The notes beneath the pieces are model-generated. The model did no database searches. It worked only from the letters and a program-made list of their open reading frames with translations, and was not told the origin of the DNA. A program made the position numbers and the translations under genes. From Chitinophaga cymbidii (lineage in GTDB: Bacteria > Bacteroidota > Bacteroidia > Chitinophagales > Chitinophagaceae), in NCBI RefSeq assembly GCF_007992715.1, contig NZ_BKAU01000005.1, positions 868,001-932,000 on the forward strand: a stretch of DNA of 64,000 bases, in the 5' to 3' direction. Shown piece after piece: positions 36,821 to 43,219 of this stretch (its first letter is position 1; each line of letters starts with the position of its first letter).

Positions 36821-38116
36821 TTATTGCATCAGCCATTCCTTCATCTGCCCGTAATCAGCGTCCATTTTCACGGAGACTTTTTGTTTGCCGGACAATTCCT
36901 GCACCTGCTCCGGCGCCGTTACCTGCTGCTGCAGGCTTTCCGGCATGGTGTTGAGGAACTTCACCGGATGCGCTGTTTCCAGGAATATGCCGGTGTTGTT
37001 GGGATGCTTTTGCTGGTATTGCTTCAGGCCGAGGTAGCCTACGGCGCCGTGAGGGTCCATCAGGTATTCGTGTTTCGCAAATACTTCTTCCATGGCGGCA
37101 ACGGTCTGTTCGTCCGTAAAGCGGTAAGCGGTGAGGCTTGCTTTCAGCGCGCGTTCGTTCTGCGCGAACATCTGCAGGATGCGCGCGAAGTTGCTGGGGT
37201 CCGCTACGTCCATCGCGTTGGAAAGCGTGGCTACGGCCGGCTGCGGCTCATAGGCGCCGTTCCTGAAATAGCGGGGTACGGTATCGTTCACATTGGTGGC
37301 GGCTATGAAATGATGAATGGGCAGTCCCATGGCGGCGGCCATCATGCCGGCGCAGATATTGCCGAAGTTGCCGCTGGGCACGGACATCACGGTTTCTTTC
37401 TTCCACTGTTTCGCTTCGCGGTAAGCCATGAAATAGTAGAACATCTGCGGCAGCCAGCGGGCTACATTGATGGAATTGGCGGAGGTCAGCGGGCGGCGGG
37501 TTTGCAGCTCGTCGTCCAGGAAAGCGGTTTTCACCAGCCGCTGGCAATCGTCGAACGTGCCGTTGATCTCAAGCGCGCTGATGTTGCCGCCCAGGGTGGT
37601 GAGCTGCTTTTCCTGCAGGTCGCTTACTTTTCCGGAAGGGTAGAGAATGACTACCTGCACACCGGGTACATTGTAAAAACCATGGGCCACAGCACCGCCG
37701 GTATCGCCGGAAGTGGCTACCAGCACGGTCACCGGCTTGTCTTCACCTCTGCGGAAATACCCGAGGCAACCCGCCATAAAATGCGCGCCCACGTCCTTGA
37801 ACGCGAGGGTAGGGCCGTGAAATAACTCGAGCGCATACACGTTTTCTTCCACTTTGCGTAAAGGAAAAGGGAAGGAGAGCGTATCGGCGATGATCTTTTT
37901 AAGGTCTTTTTCAGGGATGTCGTCGCCAACAAAGGGCTGTATGGCGCTGAGGGCAATAAATAGCGGATCGTACTCTTCAATCGTGTCTTTCAACCGCTTC
38001 TCCAGCTTCGGTATCTCGGCGGGAAAATACAATCCCCTGTCCGGCGCCAGGCCCTGAATAACGGCTTCCCGGAAGGAAACCCTGTGCTGATGATTCTGTA
38101 AGCTATAATACTGCAT
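36821..38116 (-). CDS. thrC: Threonine synthase
   Basis: The 431-aa PLP enzyme makes threonine from O-phosphohomoserine. The family start YYSLQNHQHRVSFREAV, the PLP lysine in HGPTLAFKDVGAHF and the VLVATSGDTGGAVAHGF phosphate-binding loop are visible. It is the third gene of thrABC, 36 bp after thrB. Confidence 0.96.
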   Translation of the reverse strand: MQYYSLQNHQHRVSFREAVIQGLAPDRGLYFPAEIPKLEKRLKDTIEEYDPLFIALSAIQPFVGDDIPEKDLKKIIADTLSFPFPLRKVEENVYALELFHGPTLAFKDVGAHFMAGCLGYFRRGEDKPVTVLVATSGDTGGAVAHGFYNVPGVQVVILYPSGKVSDLQEKQLTTLGGNISALEINGTFDDCQRLVKTAFLDDELQTRRPLTSANSINVARWLPQMFYYFMAYREAKQWKKETVMSVPSGNFGNICAGMMAAAMGLPIHHFIAATNVNDTVPRYFRNGAYEPQPAVATLSNAMDVADPSNFARILQMFAQNERALKASLTAYRFTDEQTVAAMEEVFAKHEYLMDPHGAVGYLGLKQYQQKHPNNTGIFLETAHPVKFLNTMPESLQQQVTAPEQVQELSGKQKVSVKMDADYGQMKEWLMQ

Positions 38117-38152: not shown

Positions 38153-39094
38153 TCAATCTATCACGCGCACACCGGCGGTGCTGATGCGGCTGACGTGGAT
38201 CCTGTAGTCTACGCCCAATGGCGCGTAGATGCTTTCCATCATGGCTGCTACGGCATTAGCATTGTCTGCGCCCTTGCTGAGCATGAATACGGAAGGCCCG
38301 CTGCCGGAGATGCCGCCGCCGAGCGCGCCTGCTTCCTTGCAGCGGAGCTTCAGGTCGTGGAAGGCGGGGATGAGGATAGAGCGGATGGGCTCTACGATCA
38401 CGTCTTCCAGCGCGCGGCTGATGAGGGCGTAGTCTTCGCGGTAAAGCCCCGCTACCAAAGCGCCTACGTTGCCCCATTGCCGGATGGCGTCGCGGAGCAG
38501 CACCTGTTGCTTGAGGATGCCGCGGGCGTCGGAGGTTTTCACTTCTATCTGCGGATGGATCACGGTGACCCAGAGATCTTCCGGTGTGTGCAGGCGTATC
38601 ACGTCCAGCGGCTGATAGCTTCTCACGAGCGTGAAACCGCCCATGATGGCCGGCGCTACGTTGTCCGCATGCGGAGTGCCGCAGGCGAGGCGTTCGCCTT
38701 CCATGGCGAAGCGTATCAGTGATTCCGGCGGGAAGTGATCGTTCAGCAGCTTGTTGGCGCCGGCTACCGCGCCCGCCGCGCTGGCCGCGCTGGAACCGAT
38801 GCCACTGCCGGGCTGGATGTTCTTTTTGATGGATACTTCAATGCCCAGCTCCGGTTGCCCGTATTCCTGCAGCATGGCCATCAACGCCACGCCGGCCACG
38901 TTCTGCGCTGCTTCCAGCGGAAGGTCAGCGCCTTCTATGGCGGTGATGCGCACGCCGGGCTGGTCGCTGATCCGCAGCTCCATTTCATCGCCGGTGCCGT
39001 CCATCGCCAGACCTATCACGTCAAAACCGCAGGCCACGTTGGCAACGGTGGCGGGAGAAAATACTTTTACGGATGATAATTGTTGCTTGCTCAT
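38153..39094 (-). CDS. thrB: Homoserine kinase
   Basis: The 313-aa GHMP kinase phosphorylates homoserine. Motifs: KVFSPATVANVACGFD (motif 1) near the start, PGSGIGSSAASAAGAVAGAN (motif 2, ATP-binding) at about 93-112, and GGGISGSGPSVFMLS (motif 3) near residue 260. It sits 8 bp downstream of thrA and 36 bp upstream of thrC. The three genes should be made together. Confidence 0.97.
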   Translation of the reverse strand: MSKQQLSSVKVFSPATVANVACGFDVIGLAMDGTGDEMELRISDQPGVRITAIEGADLPLEAAQNVAGVALMAMLQEYGQPELGIEVSIKKNIQPGSGIGSSAASAAGAVAGANKLLNDHFPPESLIRFAMEGERLACGTPHADNVAPAIMGGFTLVRSYQPLDVIRLHTPEDLWVTVIHPQIEVKTSDARGILKQQVLLRDAIRQWGNVGALVAGLYREDYALISRALEDVIVEPIRSILIPAFHDLKLRCKEAGALGGGISGSGPSVFMLSKGADNANAVAAMMESIYAPLGVDYRIHVSRISTAGVRVID

Positions 39095-39102
39095 ATATTG
39101 TT

Positions 39103-41544
39103 TTATCGTACGGTCCTGATAATATCTGCAAATATGCCCGATGCCGTTACGTCCGCGCCGGCGCCGGCGCCTTTGACGATCAGCGGTTGCTCCGCGTACC
39201 GGCTGGTGGTGAATAACACGATGTTGTCTTTCCCCTCGAGCTGATAGAAGGGATGCTCACGCCCGACCGACTGCAGGCCCACCGACGCTTCGCCATTGTG
39301 GTAACGCGCCACGAACTTCAGCCTTTCCCCTTTGTCCGACGCATTTTGCAGCAATTGCTGGAAATGCGCGGCATGTACATCGAGCTGTTCATAAAAAGCA
39401 TTTACATCTTTTGCGTGCAGCGCTTCGTCCGGCAGGAAGGAATGATTGACGATGTCTTTCATTTCCAGTACGGCGCCGCTTTCCCTGGCGAGGATGAGTA
39501 TCTTGCGCATCACGTCTTTCCCGCTGAGGTCGATGCGCGGGTCCGGCTCCGTGTAACCTTCGTCCTGCGCGGCTTTCACCACTTTGCGGAAGTTGGCGCC
39601 GTTCACGAAGTTGTTGAACACGAAGTTAAGGCTGCCGCTCAGCACCGCTTCGATGGTATTCACCTTGTCACCGCTGCGCACGAGGTCGTTCAGGGTGTTG
39701 ATCACCGGCAGGCCGGCGCCAACGTTGGTTTCAAAGAGGAAGGAGGCGTTGAATTTGCGGGCCAGGTCCTTCAGCTTTTTATAGTTCGCATATTCGGAGG
39801 AACAGGCGATCTTGTTGCAGGTGACTACAGAGATGCCGTGCTGGAGGAAGGTACTGTACAGCCCTGCGACCTCATCGCTGGCGGTGTTGTCTACAAACAC
39901 GCTGTTGCGGAGGTTCATGTCCCGCACGCGCTGCGCGAACTGGGTGAGGTCCATTTCATGACCCGCTTCCAGGTCTGCTTTCCAGTTATCCAGGTGGATG
40001 CCGGTTTCGGAGAAGCGCATTTTGCGGCTGTTGGCGATGCCCATGATGCGCACCTGCAGCCCCAGTTCCTGCAGCAGGTAGCTTTGCTGCGATTGCAGCT
40101 GCTCCAGCAGCTTGCCGCCTACGTTGCCGGTGCCGGCGACGAATACGTTCACCTGCCGGGTTTCGGATTCGAAAAACACTTCGTGTATAACGTTCAGCGC
40201 TTTTTTTACGTCCGCTTTATTGATCACGGCGGAGATGTTCTTTTCGGTGGAGCCCTGCGCGATGGCCCGCACGTTGATGGCATTGCGCCCGAGCGCGCCG
40301 AAGAGCTTGCCGCTGAGGCCGTGGTAATTCTTCATGTTATCGCCCACAACGGCTACGATGGCGAGGTCCCTTTCCACCAGCAGCGGTTCGATGCGTTTGT
40401 CGTGTATCTCCTGCGCAAATTCACTGTCTATCGCCGCTTTCGCCTTGAGCATGTCGCTTTCATGCACGCCGGTGGTGATGGAGTGTTCCGACGAGCTTTG
40501 GGTGATGAGGATCACGTTGACCTTTTCGCGCAGCAATGCGTCGAACAGGCGTTTGGAGAAGCCGGGGATGCCTACCATGCCGCTGCCTTCCAGCGTGAGC
40601 AGCGCTATTTTCTGGATGCCGGAGATGCCGGTTACAGGGAAGGGCTTTTCGCCGTTGTCCTGTATCAGGGTGCCGTAATCGTCCGGCGCAAAAGTATTTT
40701 TGATCCAGATGGGGATGCGGCGGTTCATCACCGGCTGAATGGTGGGCGGGTAGATGACTTTGGCGCCGAAGTGGGACAGCTCCATCGCTTCCTCGTAGGA
40801 GATGCGGGGGATGGCGATGGCTTGCGGCACAAGGCGCGGGTCGGCGGTCATCATGCCGCTTACGTCCGTCCATATTTCCAGTACGCTGGCGTCCATGGCC
40901 GCTGCCACGATGGCGGCGGTATAGTCGGAGCCGCCGCGCCCGAGGGTGGTGGTTTCTTTGTCCGGGCCGGATGCGATGAAGCCGGGGAGTATCACGTATT
41001 CGGAGGGCTGGTGCTGGAAGAAGCTGGTAACCTGGTGGTCGGTGACCTCAAAGTCCACCAGCGCATGACCGAACTGGGCGTCGGTGGAGATCAGCTCGCG
41101 GCTGTCTTTCCAGCCCGCGGGCAGTCCCATCTGCTTCAGCTTCTCCGCCACGATCCAGGAGGAGAGCAGTTCTCCGAAGCTCATGAGCTTGTCCAGCGAC
41201 CGCCTGCTCAGCTCACCTACCTGGAAGATGCCGTCGCACAAAGATTCCAGCTGGTTGAGCTGTTTCTTGACCTGGCTGAGCAGGCTGCTTTGCACGGTAA
41301 TGGGAAAGAGCCCCCGGATGGCTTCCAGGTGCCTGTTTTCGATCTCCTGTAATATCGTCCTGTATTGTTCCTGCCCTTGCCCCGCCTGCTGGCCGGCTGC
41401 AATGAGCTTGTCGGTGACGCCGCTCATGGCGGATACCACCACCGCCATCCGGCCTTTGCGTTTGTAAGATGCTATAATGCTGCAAACCTGTTCTATAGCT
41501 TGTGTACTGCCGACTGAAGTACCGCCGAATTTTAAAACCTGCAT
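39103..41544 (-). CDS. thrA: Bifunctional aspartokinase/homoserine dehydrogenase
   Basis: The 813-aa product joins aspartokinase (about 1-285: LKFGGTSVGS, GRGGSDYTAAIVAAA), two ACT regulatory domains (about 300-460) and homoserine dehydrogenase (about 465-813: VFVAGTGNVGGKLL, NKIACSSEYANYK, GYTEPDPRIDLSGKDV). It catalyses the first and third steps of threonine and methionine synthesis from aspartate. The ACT domains imply feedback by threonine. It heads thrABC; a Thr/Ile-rich leader with a hairpin lies upstream. Two long reverse frames over this gene are shadows. Confidence 0.97.
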   Translation of the reverse strand: MQVLKFGGTSVGSTQAIEQVCSIIASYKRKGRMAVVVSAMSGVTDKLIAAGQQAGQGQEQYRTILQEIENRHLEAIRGLFPITVQSSLLSQVKKQLNQLESLCDGIFQVGELSRRSLDKLMSFGELLSSWIVAEKLKQMGLPAGWKDSRELISTDAQFGHALVDFEVTDHQVTSFFQHQPSEYVILPGFIASGPDKETTTLGRGGSDYTAAIVAAAMDASVLEIWTDVSGMMTADPRLVPQAIAIPRISYEEAMELSHFGAKVIYPPTIQPVMNRRIPIWIKNTFAPDDYGTLIQDNGEKPFPVTGISGIQKIALLTLEGSGMVGIPGFSKRLFDALLREKVNVILITQSSSEHSITTGVHESDMLKAKAAIDSEFAQEIHDKRIEPLLVERDLAIVAVVGDNMKNYHGLSGKLFGALGRNAINVRAIAQGSTEKNISAVINKADVKKALNVIHEVFFESETRQVNVFVAGTGNVGGKLLEQLQSQQSYLLQELGLQVRIMGIANSRKMRFSETGIHLDNWKADLEAGHEMDLTQFAQRVRDMNLRNSVFVDNTASDEVAGLYSTFLQHGISVVTCNKIACSSEYANYKKLKDLARKFNASFLFETNVGAGLPVINTLNDLVRSGDKVNTIEAVLSGSLNFVFNNFVNGANFRKVVKAAQDEGYTEPDPRIDLSGKDVMRKILILARESGAVLEMKDIVNHSFLPDEALHAKDVNAFYEQLDVHAAHFQQLLQNASDKGERLKFVARYHNGEASVGLQSVGREHPFYQLEGKDNIVLFTTSRYAEQPLIVKGAGAGADVTASGIFADIIRTVR

Positions 41545-41624
41545 GTAAATGATAGATGTTAATTGAGGAAATGGGCAAACCCTGCCTGAAGTGTACCAGT
41601 AACTGGTCGATGGGACGATATGTG

Positions 41625-41647
41625 AAAATTAACCCCGCGATGGGGTT
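41625..41647 (-). terminator. Attenuator-like hairpin of the thr leader
   Basis: On the minus strand AACCCC (41647-41642) pairs with GGGGTT (41636-41631) across a 5-base loop, followed by AATTTT. The stem overlaps the last codons and stop of the leader peptide, so a ribosome stalled at the Thr codons would change its folding. The T-run is short, so termination strength is uncertain. Confidence 0.55.
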
Positions 41648-41730
41648 GTGGTTGTTGTGGTAATAATAGTGCCGTGCACTCCGGAAGAGAGTGGAGCTAT
41701 ACGGATAATATGTGAGTTAAATAAATGCAC
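41629..41730 (-). CDS. thrL: Threonine operon leader peptide
   Basis: Upstream of thrA on its strand, a short frame ends GTIITTTTTTPSRG and stops 84 bp before the thrA start. It carries two Ile and six Thr codons in a row (41641-41670 region), the hallmark of threonine/isoleucine attenuation leaders such as E. coli ThrL. No ATG is in frame; GTG at 41730 gives 33 residues and GTG at 41679 gives 16. A hairpin overlaps the stop. Low charged Thr-tRNA or Ile-tRNA would stall ribosomes here and favour thrABC expression. Leader identity is strong; the exact start is not. Confidence 0.7.
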   Translation of the reverse strand: MHLFNSHIIRIAPLSSGVHGTIITTTTTTPSRG

Positions 41731-41883
41731 TATTATTTTGTGACTTTTGTATTACAAAGGTGTAAAAATTAAAACGAAAATACAAATGGTATTGTCAAAA
41801 TTTAGAAAAAATCTAAAATAGCGGCTGGTAAAACTTTTCTTTACAATCGTAAAAATAACCGTAATTTTAGGCGGTTAACGAAC

Positions 41884-41964
41884 ATGCATTCTTTACGCAC
41901 ATACAAGTATCAGCAAAGCTATTGCTACCTCATGGCAACCCTGGCCATGGATTCTGCCGTCTAA
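41884..41964 (+). CDS. Tyrosine-containing mini-ORF upstream of hmgA (speculative)
   Basis: A 26-codon frame with ATG start includes TYKYQQSYCYL: four Tyr codons within ten positions. Its stop lies 97 bp before hmgA. A hairpin (CATGGC 41931-41936 with GCCATG 41944-41949) falls inside its later codons. The next genes degrade tyrosine, so a sensing leader is conceivable, but the run of Tyr codons is not long and no terminator T-run follows. It may be chance. Confidence 0.25.
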   Translation: MHSLRTYKYQQSYCYLMATLAMDSAV

Positions 41965-42061
41965 CCACGTTCCCGCTTCTTCGTAAATTCGTATTGGTTT
42001 ATTATTTGCACGACTATGCCTGTCTCAGGGCTGGTATTGTTTATTATAATTAACTTTTTTT

Positions 42062-43219
42062 ATGCCACATTATCATACGCTCGGGCAGATCCCACACAAG
42101 CGGCATACACAGTTCCGCAAACCGGACGGCAAACTGTATTCCGAGCAGTTATTTTCCACGGAAGGCTTTTCGTCCCACTACTCCCTCCTGTACCACTGTC
42201 ACCCCCCTACGGAGATCGTAAAGGTGGATGAGCCGTACAGCGTAACGCCGGTGGTGGCCGAAGAGAAGATGCTGAAGCACCGCAGTTTCCAGGGTTTCAA
42301 CATCGTGCCGGAAAATGACTATCTCAAAAGCCGCAAGGCCGTGCTCGTCAATAATGATTGCCATATTTCCCTCGCCGCGCCCCGGCAGAGCATGAAGGAA
42401 TACTTCTATAAAAATGCGGATGCGGACGAGATACTTTTCATTCACGAAGGCAGCGGGGTGCTCCGCACGCAGTACGGGCAACTGGAATTCGGATATGGCG
42501 ATTATGTGGTGATCCCCCGCGGAACGATCTACCAGGCGGAGTTTTCCAATGCGGACAACCGCCTTTTTATCGTGGAGTCGTTCAGCCCCATCCGTTTCCC
42601 GAAACGTTACCTGAGCCATTACGGGCAGCTGCTGGAAAATTCACCTTTCTGCGAGCGGGACATCCGCCAGCCGCAGCACCTGGAAACCATCGACCAGGCC
42701 GGTGATTTCACCATACTCATTAAAAAGAAGGGCATCATGTATCCCATTCATTACGGCCATCATCCGTTTGATGTGGTGGGATGGGATGGATGCGAATACC
42801 CGTATGCTTTGTCCATTCACGATTTTGAACCCATCACGGGCCGCGTGCATCAGCCGCCGCCGGTACACCAGACCTTCGAAGGGCACAACTTCGTGGTCTG
42901 CTCGTTCTGCCCCCGGCTGTTCGACTACCACCCGCAGGCCGTGCCGGCACCGTATAACCACAGCAACATTGACAGTGATGAGGTGTTATATTATGTAGAC
43001 GGGGATTTCATGAGCCGCAAGCACGTGACGCGCGGCATGATCACCCTGCATCCCGCCGGTATCCCGCATGGCCCGCACCCCGGAGCGGTGGAAAAGAGCC
43101 TCGGTGCGAAGGAAACGAAAGAGCTGGCCGTGATGGTGGATACCTTTCATCCGTTGCAGATCACCAGAGACGCTTTGATCATCGAAGATGAAAAGTATGT
43201 GATGAGCTGGGCGGAATAG
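42062..43219 (+). CDS. hmgA: Homogentisate 1,2-dioxygenase
   Basis: The 385-aa iron enzyme opens the ring of homogentisate to maleylacetoacetate in tyrosine breakdown. The cupin-like core shows metal-ligand regions FIHEGSGVLRTQYG and GDYVVIPRGTIYQ. The C-terminal half carries HQTFEGHNFVVCSFCPR, NHSNIDSDEVLYYVDG and HPAGIPHGPHPGA, where the iron His/Glu ligands lie. Length is slightly below that of human HGD. It leads an operon-like row with an aldo/keto reductase and hppD, which makes its substrate. Confidence 0.94.
   Translation: MPHYHTLGQIPHKRHTQFRKPDGKLYSEQLFSTEGFSSHYSLLYHCHPPTEIVKVDEPYSVTPVVAEEKMLKHRSFQGFNIVPENDYLKSRKAVLVNNDCHISLAAPRQSMKEYFYKNADADEILFIHEGSGVLRTQYGQLEFGYGDYVVIPRGTIYQAEFSNADNRLFIVESFSPIRFPKRYLSHYGQLLENSPFCERDIRQPQHLETIDQAGDFTILIKKKGIMYPIHYGHHPFDVVGWDGCEYPYALSIHDFEPITGRVHQPPPVHQTFEGHNFVVCSFCPRLFDYHPQAVPAPYNHSNIDSDEVLYYVDGDFMSRKHVTRGMITLHPAGIPHGPHPGAVEKSLGAKETKELAVMVDTFHPLQITRDALIIEDEKYVMSWAE

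Follow-up and report, generated by a model that had tools for sequence, protein, structure and literature searches.

Few regulatory circuits are understood as well as amino acid attenuation, for which the usual explanation is a competition between two hairpins. In Escherichia coli, thrL is a short Thr/Ile-rich leader ORF located just 5′ of thrABC, and the position of the ribosome on its codon run serves as the sensor. The tnaC leader is linked to Rho, and its peptide arrest is triggered by free tryptophan, not by an uncharged tRNA. The role of the Bacteroid-trp motif is attenuation of trp. This motif (RF01692) is listed as a candidate cis-regulatory RNA of Bacteroidetes (Table 1 of PMC2864571). 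As of 2010, to the knowledge of one study, leader peptides had been shown only in Proteobacteria and Actinobacteria, with the exception of one atypical leader, and that study added a case from Firmicutes (PMC2965389). Strong clues for leader-peptide attenuation 5′ of amino acid operons have been described in Flavobacterium psychrophilum, in a paper whose main text does not contain the word threonine (PMC9723704), and leader-like short ORFs are mentioned in Bacteroides (PMC7366714). As an idea, leader-peptide attenuation in Bacteroidota is already known and is not new. Attenuation usually needs a terminator that forms outside the region covered by the ribosome (PMC4833913, which cites a 2010 comparative survey of attenuators by Lopatovskaya et al.). 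No account of the element described here was found in searches of an open-licence library, a scope beyond which subscription papers lie.

The window analyzed here, a stretch of 64,000 nt from Chitinophaga cymbidii, belongs to a genome of 6.63 Mb and carries thrA, thrB and thrC on the − strand, 3′ of a putative leader. All three genes were matched to NCBIfam above the curated cut-off; the closest named relatives of thrA are those of Chitinophaga (identity up to 88%). A divergent gene on the + strand, which begins at 42062, matches homogentisate dioxygenase below the cut-off.

39103 to 41544, − strand: thrA, bifunctional aspartate kinase/homoserine dehydrogenase, the first gene of the operon
38153 to 39094, − strand: thrB, homoserine kinase
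36821 to 38116, − strand: thrC, threonine synthase

The leader region consists of the following parts, of which P0, P1, the CATAT boxes and P3 are absent from the original prediction for this locus.

41629 to 41730, − strand: leader peptide ORF MHLFNSHIIRIAPLSSGVHGTIITTTTTTPSRG, with a GTG start, 33 codons and a TAA stop (sequence reading and family comparison)
41644 to 41670, − strand: Thr-Ile-Ile-Thr x6, a regulatory codon run that overlaps P2 by its last two Thr codons
41727 to 41737, − strand: P0 5′ arm AATAATAGTGC, which includes the GTG start codon (duplex comparison, alignment fold and window fold)
41662 to 41672, − strand: P0 3′ arm GCACTATTATT, at the start of the Thr/Ile run (duplex comparison, alignment fold and window fold)
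41704 to 41712, − strand: U-box CATATTATC, a CATAY box inside the leader ORF (family comparison)
41679 to 41696, − strand: P1, a hairpin within the leader ORF, 5′ of the Thr run (scan with shuffle control, window fold)
41631 to 41647, − strand: P2, hairpin AACCCC-ATCGC-GGGGTT adjoining the stop codon, the proposed attenuator hairpin (family comparison, alignment)
41614 to 41622, − strand: D-box CATATCGTC, a conserved CATAT box after P2 (family comparison)
41595 to 41607, − strand: P3, hairpin ACCAG-TTA-CTGGT after the D-box (scan, alignment fold and window fold)

Direct reading of the − strand gives a leader frame that ends in ...GVHGTIITTTTTTPSRG / GTIITTTTTTPSRG, with TAA at 41631-41629. Its terminal codons are ACT ATT ATT ACC ACA ACA ACC ACA ACC CCA TCG CGG GGT TAA, and thus include six consecutive Thr codons, two Ile codons 5′ of them and one further Thr codon before those, so that the short frame on the thrA strand is as originally predicted. 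The prediction that a GTG start is required is likewise borne out, because no in-frame ATG occurs in the leader ORF of the window. The GTG at 41730-41728, which bounded the predicted region on its right-hand side, is the upstream start, and a second in-frame GTG lies 16 codons 5′ of the stop. The predicted AACCCC/GGGGTT hairpin overlapping the run, with a TTTT sequence, is found by reading at 41647-41631, followed by AATTTT.

Extraction from all loci yielded 149 distinct leaders, of which 112 are nonredundant; an ATG or GTG near 29 codons was preferred as the start, with correction where an internal start had been chosen. The 149 leaders start with GTG (84), ATG (60) or TTG (5), and GTG starts nearly all extracted Chitinophaga leaders, so that the absence of ATG in the window looks like a trait of the genus. 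The last 16 codons of the 149 leaders contain on average 6.3 Thr and 2.8 Ile codons, values inflated by selection, and the earlier part has 11% Thr and 13% Ile. An open Thr frame, starting from an ATG or GTG 50-115 nt before P2, is present in 104 of the 112 nonredundant leaders, compared with 3 and 6 for the other frames; this frame was picked by Thr content, and openness and start position played no part in the choice.

The script that produced the 149 leaders rewards a perfect hairpin, a NATAY box, ACN/ATY codons and a stop codon and, except at two Solitalea loci, drops scores below 26; therefore, the counts of P2 pairing, Thr content and NATAT are inflated, and a fair test on 89 family loci provides a check without this selection. 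In the fair test, neither hairpin nor box defines the leader, which is simply the stop-terminated ORF 40-260 nt 5′ of thrA whose last 12 codons are richest in Thr. Five or more Thr codons among the last 12 were found at 68 of the 89 loci, as opposed to 2 of 445 shuffled upstream sequences, and 15 of the 21 loci that fell below this threshold are counted carriers of the element with shorter or more Ile-rich runs. Of these 68 leaders, 67 have an ATG or GTG at a distance of 15-45 codons 5′ of the stop; a hairpin about the stop codon beats shuffles in 67 and swapped arms in 61, and the stop is followed within 37 nt by CATAT in 54, against 3.2 expected. Because the sequences are related, the z and P values given here are not probabilities for independent samples. 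The presence of a short ORF with a run of codons for the end product 5′ of thrABC is strongly supported by this comparison, and the ORF is predicted to be translated.

The thrA gene was sought in 147 genomes of the family and found in 102, and the upstream DNA was read for 93 (G142, G030 and G124 among them); one locus (L041) is cut by a contig end, which leaves 92 assessable genomes. By script and reading, a Thr/Ile leader with the element precedes thrA in 84 of the 92, including two loci accepted by eye after a script miss (L035 and L086, the latter with a partial box). Four others have a different arrangement with a strong terminator-like hairpin, which on reading is clearly classical at L257 and L258 and probably so at L089 and L090, and at four more (L070, L078, L082 and L088) no such leader precedes thrA; these eight genomes indicate that the element is dispensable. 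Within the genus, the element is found 5′ of thrA in 25 of 25 genomes, 24 of them by model R1 and the 25th (G154) by reading. In the window, R1 matches at 41653-41592(-) with an E value of 9e-6. No other match lies in the window at E up to 1, and none besides it was reported for the genome, where 136 of 1250 first-look candidates were scored. Loss of the Thr run where thrABC is kept, which by the original prediction would refute it, is not the pattern in the genus and the family; beyond the family, the run is patchy. A Thr/Ile leader peptide that controls thrABC, the core of the original prediction, is strongly supported by this conservation.

Outside the family, no ORF passed the Thr-run filter in an order sample of 26 loci, and reading shows a Thr-containing leader at no fewer than 10 of 22 loci in a class sample (L152, L153, L157, L160, L161, L163, L164, L166, L169 and L170). 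A stop-proximal hairpin together with a CATAT-like box occurs at four loci of the class sample (L152, L153, L157 and L159). Applied to 80 named contigs, the script detected the element in Chitinophaga, Niastella, Puia, Segetibacter, Flavitalea and others, as well as in two Solitalea, where the box reads TATAT, and did not find it at three Hymenobacter and five Blattabacterium loci. At two loci of the class sample (L163 and L164), thrA is preceded by a different stop-in-hairpin form, whose loop contains the stop codon (ACGGGGTAACCCGT and ACGGGGTGACCCGT). Chitinophaga vietnamensis has two thrA genes (L197 and L199) about 22 kb apart on one contig, in opposite orientation and with the element before both; this pair is possibly a recent duplication.

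A platform shared with other amino acid operons was considered and rejected: in 40 relatives, R1, with which 136 first-look candidates were scored per genome, gave 37 matches, of which 24 lie before thrA in the same genus. The remaining 13 have E values of 0.08 or worse, and the six that were read (L115 and L117-L121) have no adjacent thrA by script. By eye, no leader precedes ilvD in the C. cymbidii genome. No match to RF01692 was obtained in this genome and 14 relatives at E 0.01, nor in the window, and a search of positions 41400-42100 of the window against Rfam 15 at E up to 1 returned only a chance microRNA match; 16 loci searched at the gathering threshold gave 0 matches.

The window sequence by itself folds into P0, P1, P2 and P3, and 1 of 200 dinucleotide shuffles folds equally well (z -2.87). 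In alignment A1, which comprises 78 sequences picked for perfect stems, 29 cells of P2 are changed on both sides, a number reached in 0 of 500 shuffles, and slid controls are far lower; the outermost pair is broken in 34 of the 78. The stop codon is located 5′ of the P2 3′ arm in 83 of 112 leaders and in or just past that arm in most Chitinophaga. P1 and P3, which had no part in the selection of sequences, pair better than shuffles in 113 and 98 of the 149 leaders, respectively. In an anchored scan of native against swapped sequences (5735 window pairs), the top three signals are P2, P1 and P3 (z 7.2, 6.5 and 6.0), and P0 is weaker (z 4.1). The two arms of P0 come from the leader start region and from the beginning of the Thr run, and its native duplex is stronger than the swapped one in 107 of 149 and 74 of 112 leaders, so that P0 is absent or undetected in about a third. 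Given 35 Chitinophaga-type sequences and no structure, RNAalifold returned P0, P2 and P3 and did not recover P1; in this alignment, P3 covaries, and P0 and P2 are nearly invariant. The half-swap control, which is cut at each native loop, favors the native pairing, a bias from which the shuffle control and the anchored scan are free. A further weak hairpin (z 4.3), often CCGG..CCGG by eye, lies between P3 and thrA (41545-41594 in the window, and at equivalent positions in Chitinophaga).

Each box precedes a hairpin, the U-box P1 and the D-box P3. In the selected leaders, for which NATAY was a selection criterion, NATAT is present in 108 of 112 (CATAT in 90), mostly 6-10 nt past P2. The upstream box was not a selection criterion, and 85 of 112 leaders have a CATAY 6-33 nt downstream of their start, compared with 13.9 expected in shuffles. 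It falls in one reading frame in 56 of the 85 and in other frames in 29, which suggests that it is conserved as nucleotides rather than as peptide and disfavors a peptide role for the HI(I/T)S segment. The distance from the downstream box to the ATG of thrA is variable (5th to 95th percentile, 72 to 140 nt). Long stretches here in L069 and L075 (211 and 225 nt from box to ATG), and in L041, share pieces such as AAAGCTGGTAT near thrA. A boxA/nut-type box common to rrn leaders was also considered and rejected, because neither CATAT nor CATAC occurs within 330 nt upstream of 16S in seven rrn operons of two family members; this comparison rests on the two relatives, since the 16S search found no gene in the C. 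cymbidii genome and four genus members.

A candidate promoter is located upstream of the leader.

41783 to 41786, − strand: candidate −33 element TTTG, 20 nt 5′ of CACCTTTG (read from the sequence)
41755 to 41764, − strand: candidate −7 element TACACCTTTG, TAnnTTTG-like, in which CACCTTTG occupies 41762-41755

TTTG is the −33 element. The −7 consensus of Bacteroidota is given as TAnnTTTG (PMC9723704). A sequence of this type, with at most one of six positions mismatched, is found 5′ of 87 of the 112 leaders against 45.2 expected, and an exact one in 10, so that support for the promoter motif is modest. TACCTTTG is present upstream of rrn in both relatives examined. Transcription of the leader would start near 41750; the promoter-like motif argues against a thrA transcript that begins downstream of 41629, which by the original prediction would speak against the leader.

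The comparison, in which a short ORF starting with GTG or ATG and a Thr/Ile run ending at or inside P2 are followed by a CATAT box and P3, supports a model in which the leader is a Thr/Ile-sensing attenuator of thrABC that probably acts by direct occlusion of P2, a mechanism that we hold with moderate confidence. The functional class itself, a leader-peptide attenuator responsive to Thr and Ile, is well supported by the comparative data. The ribosome would translate the leader while RNA polymerase advances. A shortage of charged tRNA-Thr (or tRNA-Ile) would stall the ribosome at the end of the run, on top of the 5′ arm of P2, and the polymerase would proceed into thrABC with P2 blocked. When Thr is plentiful, the ribosome would reach the stop codon and depart, and the freed P2 would fold just behind the polymerase at the CATAT box, whereby transcription would be cut short, possibly by weak intrinsic termination, by a pause or by Rho. 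Afterwards, P0 may hide the start codon of the leader and reset the switch after one round of translation. The cell would thus probably make threonine only when it is short of it. Because P2 overlaps the last Thr codons and sits at the stop codon, the RNA structure would be coupled to the position of the leader ribosome; of the 6.3 Thr codons per leader, 3.6 lie inside P2 or within 12 nt of it, so that a ribosome paused at these codons would sit on the 5′ arm of P2. Among the points against occlusion, it assigns no role to the CATAT boxes, P1 and P3, which are conserved, and P2 would stay uncovered by a ribosome stalled at the earliest Thr codons. A more tentative interpretation, which is possible, is that the leaders form a distinct attenuator class of Bacteroidota. 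In this class, the place of the terminator/antiterminator pair would be taken by one hairpin whose loop holds the stop codon, and a module of CATAY box plus small hairpin, present in the ORF and again after P2, would act on the polymerase or bind a dedicated factor to synchronize and stop transcription.

A terminator-like site occurs in 42 of 112 leaders against 4.6 expected from shuffles of the leader region, and 35 of these sites are P2; the other 70 leaders have none. The T tail after P2 is weak (mean of 3.3 T in the next 8 nt), and most species lack a clear U tract there, which makes it doubtful that P2 terminates transcription unaided. The attenuation mechanism of E. coli thrL, in which an antiterminator hairpin competes with an intrinsic terminator, would employ identical sensor logic. 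This form does occur before thrA at L160, L161, L166, L257 and L258 and as a textbook histidine attenuator (L259) 5′ of hisG at 540973 in the same genome (leader MNNNVHTHHHHTYQCGRQGML, terminator GGCTTACCGCATCCCGGTAAGCCTTTTTTG and complementary antiterminator ATGCGGTA), from which the organism seems to use the classical form elsewhere; moreover, P2 is scored as terminator-like in about a third of leaders, including that of the window. However, the search rule for terminators gave no site on the − strand between 41400 and 42000 of the window (two terminator-like matches lie on the + strand), no intrinsic terminator other than P2 is consistently placed between leader and thrA in relatives, and the positive controls L160, L161 and L166 score far above the 112 leaders. 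Nor was antiterminator pairing above background found among the 5735 window pairs of the anchored scan and 45 region pairs of the duplex test, which returned only P0, P1, P2, P3 and the weaker downstream hairpin. A weak P1-P2 signal (z 3.9 and less in the anchored scan) could hide an alternative fold, and the duplex test (-1.3) gave it no support. On this evidence, the classical mechanism is improbable for the present leader.

Absence of a convincing intrinsic terminator would also fit Rho-dependent attenuation of the tnaC kind, in which the Thr run and the RNA downstream of it, C-rich and G-poor, form a loading site that a stalled ribosome masks and a finished ribosome exposes, so that Rho removes a polymerase paused at P2 or the D-box. 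The base composition agrees (29% C and 9% G on average in the 30 nt before P2, 18% C and 10% G after P3), and P2 with the CATAT box could act as the pause. Against this, the C-richness stems from the Thr codons themselves, a G-poor 5′ UTR is not specific, and the P0 and P2 helices would partly hide the loading site; we regard this explanation as rather unlikely. The lack of a strong terminator, and the position of the conserved CATAT box and P3 between leader and thrA, could also point to control of thrA translation or mRNA stability, exerted by the leader ribosome through P3 or the 5′ UTR. The variable spacing from box to ATG and the region after P3, which pairs with no other part above swapped controls, make such control very unlikely. 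Finally, the missing ATG and the shortness of the ORF might suggest a chance codon run in an untranslated region, which the conservation, the frame statistics and the conserved structure in our view refute.

Sensing by occlusion, as favored above, relates to the known systems as follows. The likeness to E. coli thrL that was originally proposed holds for the sensor, that is, a Thr/Ile leader 5′ of thrABC read by the position of the ribosome, and fails for the mechanism, because no antiterminator pairing was found, the hairpin lacks a proper U tract in most relatives and no strong U-tract terminator was identified, and no Rfam match was obtained; conversely, the stop codon in or beside the hairpin, P0, the CATAT boxes and P3 are features of the present leader that set it apart from thrL. 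The leaders at L160, L161, L166, L257 and L258, from the same phylum, share the Thr/Ile leader 5′ of thrA but differ in having a strong GC hairpin with 7-8 T of 8 (scored for the first three, by reading for the last two) tens of nt past the leader stop, to the 5′ arm of which the leader 3′ ends are complementary by reading. Classical and P2-type attenuators of thrA thus coexist in one phylum and in one family. As in tnaC, a leader ribosome may block termination by covering RNA, a role for Rho being hypothetical here. P2 departs from what PMC4833913 gives as usual, in that it would not form outside the region covered by the ribosome. The hisG leader is likewise a leader-peptide attenuator of an amino acid operon, of the textbook type and in the same organism, and the thr and his leaders therefore constitute a natural paired comparison inside one genome. 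The thr leader, which most genomes of the family conserve and which gave no match in Rfam 15, is a concrete candidate for how the RNA polymerase of Bacteroidota is paused or terminated; the work usually ascribed to two competing hairpins seems, in this group of Bacteroidota, to be carried out by a single hairpin at the stop codon together with a conserved box.
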